From a virus, in IMG/VR virus record IMGVR_UViG_3300034523_000293, positions 1-31,324 of that record: a stretch of DNA of 31,324 nucleotides; one strand, 5' to 3'. Shown here piece after piece: positions 1,138-3,511 of this stretch. Every line of letters starts with the position of its first letter. Positions within the stretch are counted from its first letter, which is position 1. Below the pieces are notes generated by a model. That model saw nothing but the letters and a program-made list of their open reading frames with translations. It was not told the origin of the DNA and made no database searches. The position numbers and the translations under genes are program-made.

Positions 1138-1434
1138 ATGCATATGCTTGTCACCCCAATGCGGCGCCATGGCGTGGCTCTCGACGCCAAGGAACGGCGA
1201 CTCTATCCGGCGATTAGGGGCAATGTGCTGGTGAACTCAGAGATCAACAGCGAGCTGGGTCGAAGCGCCAATGTTGCACGTTTGGATGTAGGAATGCCTT
1301 TGGACCCGGATCCACTACCGAGGCTTCTGGATGCAACCCTTGCTGGGATGGCGGTTACCGGTTTTGTCTTAAGCGGAATTGAGTACATTGACGGTTGCGC
1401 CTATGCGCAATCCTGGTGGTGCCGGATAGAATAA
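1138..1434 (+). CDS. second gene of the SOS cassette, unknown function
   Basis: A 98-residue protein translated from the ATG at 1138, about nine bases after an AGGGG ribosome site. It is co-transcribed with the upstream gene (15-base gap) and so shares the LexA-box promoter. The N-terminal half is basic. The middle contains a Leu/Pro stretch (PLDPDPLPRLLDATLAG) and the C-terminus ends in an aromatic segment (SWWCRIE). I do not recognise the family. There is no helix-turn-helix obvious by eye and no signal peptide. A hairpin terminator follows directly at 1441-1461, which closes the cassette as a two-gene transcription unit. Whether it belongs to the prophage or to the host flank is unresolved. 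Confidence 0.72.
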   Translation: MHMLVTPMRRHGVALDAKERRLYPAIRGNVLVNSEINSELGRSANVARLDVGMPLDPDPLPRLLDATLAGMAVTGFVLSGIEYIDGCAYAQSWWCRIE

Positions 1435-1440
1435 GAACAA

Positions 1441-1461
1441 AAACCGCCTCAAAAGCGGTTT
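1441..1461. terminator. bidirectional hairpin terminator between convergent genes
   Basis: AAACCGC (1441-1447) and GCGGTTT (1455-1461) form a perfect 7-bp stem with a 7-base loop. Read rightward it is followed by a modest T-rich tail. Read leftward the stem runs into a T5 tract, so it should stop transcription from both the SOS cassette and the leftward gene at 1506-2486. Confidence 0.75.
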
Positions 1462-1505
1462 CTGTTCGGGCAATACAGCTATAAAAAAATTAAAAACGAT
1501 CTTGA

Positions 1506-2486
1506 TCAATCGCTATCTTCATCAATCCTTAGTCCAGCCGCATGACATAACAAGGAAAATGCTTTAAGACTATATAATTCACTTGCATAGGTTAAGTCTA
1601 TCCCGTGCAATATTAAATTTCTATTAATGCCCGCCTCATACTTACTACCAGTAACAGCTAATGGCAACTCGATAGATAATTGCGCCCATACTGCATCATC
1701 GATTACATCAAGCCAACTAGTCTTCTTTACCAATGAATCTCTTTGACTGTTTGCGTAGTCTGCGATATTTACAAACCGCTTGCTTGTTTTTGTAAACATT
1801 TCTGCAGAGGTAATTTCTCTAACAATTCCTTCAGCTTGTGAGAAAAAAACAGGCACTGATAGCGCGAACTTAGATTCCCGATGTGCATCCACCGCCGGTA
1901 AGATGGCAAAAACCCGATGCGGAAAGACTTTTAGGATCAGCTCTGCTAAATACTCAAAACCATCTCTGTATACCGCCGAAAATTCTTCATCAAGAATACG
2001 TGCTTGATCGTCGCGATTTTCGACACCGTCCAGCAAGAACGCAAGCCTTTCGTAATCACGAAACGATAAATTAGGACTGAAAAACCAGCTATGGCTTGCG
2101 ATCACTTCAAGATTTTTTGACAGATTAGGATACTTTGCCTCCCTAGCCTTCATTACATCGTGAAATTCATTACCATAATTAATTACCCTCTGAAACTCGG
2201 GAATGTTAAACCCCTGCAGAGTTTCAGCTATTTTTTTTTGCATTTCTAAGTGAGGCTTCATCACCTCCGCGATTTTGTCTTGCATAACAAGATGCGGCTT
2301 CATTATTTCAGCTATTTTTCGCTGCATCTCGCTTTGCTGTTCCATCGCCTTTGCAACCGCACCTGAAGGAAAACCAATGCGAGCTGCTTCAGCTGCCTTA
2401 ATTAAAAGATTATCGAACCCAGGGTAGGAAGTATTAAATAGGTCCATCATCTTTGGGCGTGGATTATTGATTTTGCAGTCTTCCAT
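1506..2486 (-). CDS. AT-rich accessory protein with HEPN-like RNase motif (putative defence moron)
   Basis: A 326-residue protein, clearly AT-richer than the phage genes beside it, at the end of the late operon and just inside the probable phage end. These are hallmarks of a horizontally acquired moron. The frame allows a GTG at 2498, but the ATG at 2486 better fits the AGGAG ribosome site about 11 bases upstream. Residues 54-93 hold a 14-residue repeat of the form MQxKIAExMKPHLx, two full copies and a third partial one, suggesting a coiled coil. Near the C-terminus lies NRNLILHG, giving Arg289-x4-His294, the R-x4-6-H signature of HEPN ribonucleases. An upstream segment VPVFFSQAEGI (about 211-221) resembles the helix often preceding that motif in HEPN-type abortive infection proteins. 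The domain call is by pattern only. Function in phage exclusion is inference. Confidence 0.72.
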   Translation of the reverse strand: MEDCKINNPRPKMMDLFNTSYPGFDNLLIKAAEAARIGFPSGAVAKAMEQQSEMQRKIAEIMKPHLVMQDKIAEVMKPHLEMQKKIAETLQGFNIPEFQRVINYGNEFHDVMKAREAKYPNLSKNLEVIASHSWFFSPNLSFRDYERLAFLLDGVENRDDQARILDEEFSAVYRDGFEYLAELILKVFPHRVFAILPAVDAHRESKFALSVPVFFSQAEGIVREITSAEMFTKTSKRFVNIADYANSQRDSLVKKTSWLDVIDDAVWAQLSIELPLAVTGSKYEAGINRNLILHGIDLTYASELYSLKAFSLLCHAAGLRIDEDSD

Positions 2487-2539
2487 TGCTTTTGGCACTC
2501 CTAATCGGGAGCTTCCTTATTGCACATTCGAATGATTAT

Positions 2540-3511
2540 TTAAATAGTTACTGAACCAAGTTCAGCTGAAAGCAATGCAGCTTTCACGGCATCCGCGCTG
2601 AATGCCGACGCCGTTGTTGGTGGTGGGCTGGAGCCATGAACGTGGCTGGCGATCTCGCTGGCCAACTGCTCAATCAGATCCAGCGTGTCGCACAAGATCT
2701 TAAAGATGTTCACGCTTTCAGACCCAACATGGTTTTTCGGCGCTACCAGACGCTGACTGATTCCGGCCACGCTTTTGCGTAACCCCTTGATCTTCTCCTG
2801 CATATCACCGCTGACGGCGGCGTTGTGCGTCTTGCCCACCACCAGGTTGTAATCCCGTCCTGTCGCCTGGTGCATATCGTCCAGGGCAGCAAAGGTGGCG
2901 CCACCGGCTGAATTGAGCTTGAGCGCCCCGAGGGCGTTGATTCGCTTGATGCCCCCCACTTCCTCAGTGGAATGATTCTCCACCTCCTGGACGTGGCTCT
3001 GGTACTTCTCGCGGTTGCCCAGGGCTTCCACTTCGCGTTCCAGTGAATGGTCGCGGATCTTGCCATCGGTCAGTCGGGTCCAGTTGCCGTCCGCGTCGAC
3101 GCGCTGCTGCACTGCGTCGCTGTGCTGCCACACCTGGTCACCCTTCGGCACCTTGGGCAGGCTCAGGCCGTGCGGCAGGATCGTTTGAATGTAGGGCTTG
3201 CCGGGCGAGCCATACGCGAAGCACACCACCACCTGGGTGCCTTCCTGGGGAAACGCAAACATGCCCATCTCTTCGCCGCCGGACGGCAGTGGCAACGGCA
3301 CACCGGCCAGCCGTGGTATTGCGGGATCGGCCTCACCGTCCTGGCCAAGTACTTCGATGTCAACGGCGTAGCGCGGCCGGAAGTCGTCGCACATTGAGGC
3401 GCCGGCCGGAGCATCGGCCACCCCCACCACGCGGGCAAAGCGCGGCAGGTGATAGCCGCCGGTGAGTTCAGGAAAAAGGCGTTCTACGCTGCGCTTGATT
3501 GCGTCGTCCAT
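2540..3511 (-). CDS. baseplate spike protein (gpV / gp45-like)
   Basis: A 323-residue tail protein of the baseplate-spike type, which forms the trimeric needle at the tip of contractile tails. Residues about 70-115 carry the OB-fold signature (PLPSGGEEMGMFAFP followed by a VVVCFAYGSPGKPYIQ-type strand pair) typical of P2 gpV and Mu gp45. The middle part, about 125-245, is repetitive and hydrophilic, as expected for the beta-helical shaft. Near the C-terminus is a His-x-His motif (SHVHGSSPPPT) like the metal-binding tip of such spikes. It is the last structural gene of the late operon and overlaps the upstream hub gene by 28 bases. The 41-base gap to the accessory gene downstream is AT-rich. 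Confidence 0.85.
   Translation of the reverse strand: MDDAIKRSVERLFPELTGGYHLPRFARVVGVADAPAGASMCDDFRPRYAVDIEVLGQDGEADPAIPRLAGVPLPLPSGGEEMGMFAFPQEGTQVVVCFAYGSPGKPYIQTILPHGLSLPKVPKGDQVWQHSDAVQQRVDADGNWTRLTDGKIRDHSLEREVEALGNREKYQSHVQEVENHSTEEVGGIKRINALGALKLNSAGGATFAALDDMHQATGRDYNLVVGKTHNAAVSGDMQEKIKGLRKSVAGISQRLVAPKNHVGSESVNIFKILCDTLDLIEQLASEIASHVHGSSPPPTTASAFSADAVKAALLSAELGSVTI

Follow-up and report, generated by a model that had tools for sequence, protein, structure and literature searches.

What kind of protein is encoded by a lone AT-rich gene at the end of a prophage late operon, and does it serve the phage that carries it or the host in which that phage resides? The gene lies in a virus record 31,324 bases long (we refer to this whole stretch as the window), which encodes a contractile tail and has capsid genes of the P2 type; the host of the integrated virus is a Pseudomonas-type bacterium. 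The original prediction, made from the sequence alone, was that the gene encodes a HEPN-like RNase that blocks competing phages. The reading that we favour, and to which we assign a probability of roughly 0.6, is that this is a temperate-phage gene for a one-protein abortive-infection HEPN RNase with a variable sensing half, a reading modelled on known systems of this kind. The likeness of the protein to RNA-cutting "suicide" enzymes and its position in a slot of often antiviral genes suggest that it probably helps the host to resist competing viruses.

The cargo gene and its slot

The cargo gene occupies positions 1506..2486 on the minus strand, a strand that the original prediction did not give. 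Its start codon, ATG, is at 2486 and its stop codon ends at 1506, and translation confirms an open reading frame of 326 residues, which matches phrog_28904 and is a predicted HEPN ribonuclease; if translation started instead at an in-frame GTG (2498), the protein would have 330 residues. The claim that its base composition is unlike that of its neighbours holds, as its GC content is 0.410 and its GC3 0.377 versus 0.57-0.65 and 0.67-0.82, respectively, in the late genes checked. The ribosome site ascribed to it is also present, in the form of a possible AGGAG 11 nt 5' of the ATG (2498..2502, minus strand), although this spacing is long. The gene was correctly placed past the last structural gene and ahead of a terminator: it begins 53 nt downstream of a gpD-like baseplate gene of the same direction (2540..3511, minus strand; phrog_4011, E 1e-132), and a terminator-like hairpin of 15 pairs lies 3' of it (1435..1467, minus strand; fold z = -5.7 against shuffles). 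A consensus scan of the gap between the baseplate and cargo genes found no promoter, which for a GC-rich host type is weak evidence. The label "P2-type" fits the capsid genes; the baseplate gene is nearest to the phi3/HP1 group, and its closest counterparts are in Pseudomonas phages UFJF_PfPro (72%) and phi3 (63%), followed by HP1-like and related phages. Elsewhere in the window, about 520 bp between the phrog_9349 and phrog_6137 genes (361-882) are devoid of a convincing gene and contain promoter- and terminator-like matches; this stretch may have a regulatory role or be an attachment region.

The baseplate gene is the left border of a slot, a border kept across our survey of 80 loci that share this gene (L039-L118). 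The right border in the window is a convergent phrog_5560 gene (1138..1434, plus strand), assigned by its phrog match and by comparison with related loci. In the 30 loci where phrog_5560 is likewise the convergent far border, the slot has a median length of 1,540 bp (334-2,455) and a GC content of 0.44, compared with 0.615 and 0.564 for its borders. An ORF of 100 aa or more is present in 23 of the 30 slots, and the ORFs are found in both orientations (6 versus 21). Across all 80 loci there are 90 AT-rich ORFs, 78 of them distinct. This high variability of the slot in some 80 related prophage loci bears out the original description of the cargo gene as a moron: it is accessory cargo. One related locus, L141, has the same gene order as the window, that is, baseplate gene, homologue of the cargo gene, phrog_5560, phrog_6137 and phrog_9349.

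A scan of 73 slot cargo proteins revealed HEPN domains of the ApeA, RiboL-PSP, LA2681 and MAE_28990 kinds, as well as GmrSD, RloB, Schlafen-AlbA, AbiL-like and AriA-like ATPases and DUF4238. Other cargo has acyltransferase, Hcp or Tlde1 domains, and judging by these domains the slot cargo is partly non-defensive. By the same kind of evidence, the slot is a cargo site of HP1/phi3-like prophages which is filled mostly by different AT-rich genes, several of them from defence families. A comparable site is the P2 defence hotspot between gpA and gpQ, where a DUF4238 protein protects against T7 (PMC9122126). Both sites hold variable cargo in P2-related prophages, with many defence genes and with DUF4238 in each, but they differ in position, the one described here being located after the gpD-like gene. 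A limited literature search found no description of a slot after gpD, and the slot is apparently undescribed. The survey thus indicates a second cargo hotspot of P2-related prophages, after the last late gene, much of whose cargo looks defensive.

Several cargo genes of the slot, candidates for new defences, belong to no obvious family; examples of cargo just downstream of the gpD-like gene are L046:3973-4929, L065:7001-8989 and L112:7415-8365. Three loci (L104:7381-8420, L108:7385-8424 and L109:7385-8424) carry two-gene cargo composed of a type VI secretion Hcp-like protein and a second protein, probably the one that matches the Tlde1 domain. In two further loci (L064:7264-9267 and L073:7264-9267) the slot gene encodes a 668-aa acyltransferase with an SGNH domain, which probably modifies surface polysaccharide (lysogenic conversion). 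One kind of cargo recurs between loci (L088:6982-7797, L103:7712-8593, L105:4608-5489, L106:6990-7811 and L113:6982-7797). It encodes about 270-295 aa, has a near-host GC content (0.52-0.55) and a shared WNNPxGTHTRHF stretch, and contrasts with the AT-rich one-off cargo.

A family with a conserved motif and a predicted HEPN core

Both segments of the protein to which the original prediction drew attention were located: NRNLILHG at residues 288-295 (1602..1625, minus strand), with R289-x4-H294 as the putative RNase active site, and VPVFFSQAEGI at residues 211-221 (1824..1856, minus strand), a conserved helix with the acidic E219. The guess drawn from R-x4-H was a good one, but the motif taken alone does not exceed chance: shuffles of the cargo protein contain R-x4-H in 34% of cases and R-x4-6-H in 72%. 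We therefore rejected the motif, present in a third of shuffles, as stand-alone evidence for HEPN, and the case must rest on homologues.

The family was opened by tblastn against plasmids, which gave 8 distant matches. The first homologues aligned together (A2) showed no stretch with enough conservation for scanning, and alignment A3 was used; pattern scans guided by alignments led to 28 loci in genomes of several phyla and to about 30 contigs of viruses. A scan of viral contigs with the cargo protein as sole query gave no match, and tblastn of the cargo protein and two family members against annotated phages found no record with the family. Residues G220, N288, R289, H294, G295 and Y300 are identical in all 53 aligned homologues, position 290 is H in 49 and N in 4, and position 219 is always acidic (D in 49, E in 4). 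This conservation is partly built in, because the scanning patterns contained the motif. Two sets are free of such selection. In every aligned plasmid relative from plain tblastn the R and the H are kept, and in the genome matches from a whole-domain HMM search R-x4-H is kept in 15 of 15 loci, including distant loci that lack N288. Since some of the HMM-matched genomes were already in the profile, the distant matches L163, L164, L165, L174 and L175 are the most informative. Unlike the motif alone, its conservation in these alignments is not at chance level.

The family is scattered across bacteria, prophages and plasmids, with relatives on plasmids and also at chromosomal sites that are not in late operons. 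It is rare, being present in 4 of 274 genomes of one class and in 2 of 399 and 11 of 397 genomes of two orders, counts in which every genome draw includes its known-positive centre genome. P2-like prophages also carry members at other sites, either about 4-5 kb past the capsid gene on its downstream side or some kilobases from the portal and terminase genes (L128, L131, L133, L136, L148, L151, L152; L132, L134, L154). The only library model that covers the cargo protein is phrog_28904 (E 3e-20, residues 66-321), whose function is unassigned in the phrog library. No Pfam or NCBIfam family covers the cargo protein or its homologues, and no PADLOC model matches the cargo protein up to E 5, in agreement with the earlier remark that this is not a nameable family. 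The homologues have weak PADLOC matches to ZorA and models like it (best E 3e-5), most likely derived from coiled coil; we set aside weak acyl-CoA dehydrogenase, ZorA and SMC matches as coiled coil or chance. The family was not found in a limited literature search. The family itself is new, its kind is known, and it adds to the HEPN effectors a widely spread group which current annotation libraries do not name and which defence-finding tools for that reason overlook.

In the full-length AlphaFold2 model the N-terminus has low confidence and the C-terminal half is confident, with acidic position 219 on helix 207-226. Residues 122-326 modelled alone from 53 sequences gave a nearly all-helical structure (205 residues; pLDDT 91, pTM 0.90) in which the motif lies in a short helix ahead of the last long helix. 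Within it we delimit a HEPN-like core, residues 186-326 (1509..1931, minus strand), from the AlphaFold2 models, the HEPN structure matches and the DUF4209 alignment. In the Foldseek check proposed earlier neither model had a significant match against the PDB, with no E-value below 0.1. Among viral models there was a single significant match, to a DUF4209-named protein (E 9e-9). A sequence search of solved structures returned mainly designed helical bundles, which matched the N-terminal coiled coil.

It is possible to argue from these data that the protein is not HEPN at all and has a different helical fold in which R-x4-H arose by coincidence of function. The HEPN domains of Csm6, AbiV and HepT align within residues 186-326, at 3.3-4.5 A for stretches of about 100 residues and with Z of 2.9-5.0, values also attained by unrelated helical proteins, and even the best scores with solved structures (Z 4.6-5.0) are tied with such proteins, so that these scores are insufficient alone to prove the HEPN fold. 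The match between a genome-derived DUF4209 alignment and the cargo family is likewise weak (P 0.032; 1 of 200 column shuffles equals it), and neither the cargo protein nor its homologues reach the cut-off of PF13910 (DUF4209), for which reason the family is filed as a relative of DUF4209 and not as a member; the N-terminal part of DUF4209 proteins is also unlike that of the cargo protein. Against a non-HEPN fold, the extended DUF4209 profile alignment superposes R-x4-H on R-x4-H with similar preceding helices, and DUF4209 (C6orf70-like) is a HEPN family according to Anantharaman et al. (PMC3710099). The most compact matches among solved structures are HEPN proteins, all on one consistent stretch, and the stretch of Csm6 that is matched (247-411) includes its catalytic R372, N373 and H377 (PMC7101355). 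The sequence hallmarks of HEPN proteins (PMC3710099) are all found in the cargo family: the motif, a polar N, D or H directly following its R, and an acidic position on helix 2. We consider a non-HEPN fold quite improbable. The several independent lines agree, though none proves the point alone, and the sequences and models together make it very probable that a divergent HEPN domain makes up the C-terminal half. The HEPN-like domain of the original prediction thus stands on the conservation of R289 and H294, the in-register DUF4209 alignment and the HEPN structure matches, and not on the solved-structure scores, which are too low.

Proposed function and its alternatives

From the family and the genomic context we infer RNase activity, dimerisation, N-terminal sensing and a role in defence. 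The HEPN half would dimerise, and R289, H294, N290 and the acidic residue of the preceding long helix would carry out metal-independent RNA cleavage. The long, fast-diverging helical N-terminal half would presumably keep the enzyme inactive and sense infection. Infection of the lysogen by a competing phage would release the enzyme to cut RNA, and the cell would stop or die before the competitor multiplies.

The nearest analogue is Tha of Staphylococcus phages 80alpha/PhiNM2, a tail-activated HEPN system with the inhibitor Ith (PMC11087260). Tha is also a single prophage protein, similar in size (301 aa versus 326 aa), with an N-terminus devoid of a recognisable domain and a C-terminal HEPN domain with R-N-x3-H (R265NSIMH270 in Tha, R289NLILH294 in the cargo protein). 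We tested Tha as a relative and found no homology (BLASTP E 0.22 over 11 residues at the motif; hhalign probability 0.3%), and its genomic location is unlike that of the cargo gene. Csm6, AbiV and HepT differ in another respect, as the cargo protein has neither a CARF domain nor a nucleotidyltransferase partner. That the gene comes last in the late operon and has no clear promoter of its own would fit late expression, which is awkward for defence of a lysogen. This position also raises the problem of autoimmunity, which in Tha is solved by Ith; no inhibitor or antitoxin was identified for the cargo protein.

As the last gene of the late operon, the cargo gene may instead encode a HEPN RNase for the phage's own lytic programme, where it would act in late RNA turnover or host shut-off and not in the defence of lysogens. 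Its co-direction with the late operon 53 nt past the baseplate gene, the shared terminator and the gap with no strong promoter match all speak for this. The slot is not conserved, however: relatives carry different cargo there, in either orientation, which places it outside the core programme, and the relatives on plasmids and chromosomes are not in late operons. We regard a lytic role as unlikely. A slightly less likely explanation still is a prophage-stabilising toxin-antitoxin pair of which the protein would be the toxin; many HEPN proteins act as type II toxins (PMC3710099), and a toxic RNase requires control. Yet neither in the window nor in L141 is there an adjoining partner gene, the neighbours in both being the structural baseplate gene and, on the opposite strand, conserved phage genes, and the neighbours of other relatives vary from locus to locus.

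The changing front half

The N-terminal half of the cargo protein contains three 14-residue repeats, MQRKIAEIMKPHLV, MQDKIAEVMKPHLE and MQKKIAETLQGFNI, at residues 54-95 (2202..2327, minus strand), predicted to form a long helix. The suggestion that this repeat region senses a phage trigger found no support in comparison with the closest homologue. A comparison at the same locus had been proposed, and L141 did provide a homologue in the same slot, 46% identical to the window protein from about residue 81 onward, but its N-terminus is unrelated, with no detectable similarity before that point; the 14-residue repeat is therefore not a conserved sensor. With the same slot, the same RNase half and unrelated N-termini, the window and L141 proteins constitute a natural pair for studying the triggers of single-gene HEPN systems. 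Other relatives have front halves of their own, such as a repeat of about 30 residues in L008 and a coiled-coil-like repeat in L016.

A constant effector half joined to a changing front half is what would be expected of sensor-effector defence proteins, and relaxed constraint on a coiled coil looks similar. In its widest form, which we put forward tentatively and hold to be somewhat doubtful, the proposal would be that of a scattered HEPN family in which a constant RNase half is combined with exchangeable or fast-evolving fronts that sense different signals (coiled-coil repeats in phages, a SEC-C motif in Hymenobacter BREX operons), with the slot as a new hotspot of HP1/phi3-like prophages.

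The N-terminal SEC-C motif is found in two Hymenobacter relatives (L006:3692-4573 and L035:7686-8570), and these matches are genuine. On plasmid L006 the annotation places the homologue in a BREX operon, flanked by pglX and pglZ, L035 has the same ORF spacing as L006 together with BrxL, and in L034 BrxL is two genes upstream of the homologue; relatives also adjoin other defence-family genes. The Hymenobacter SEC-C homologue is a HEPN effector apparently integrated into BREX.
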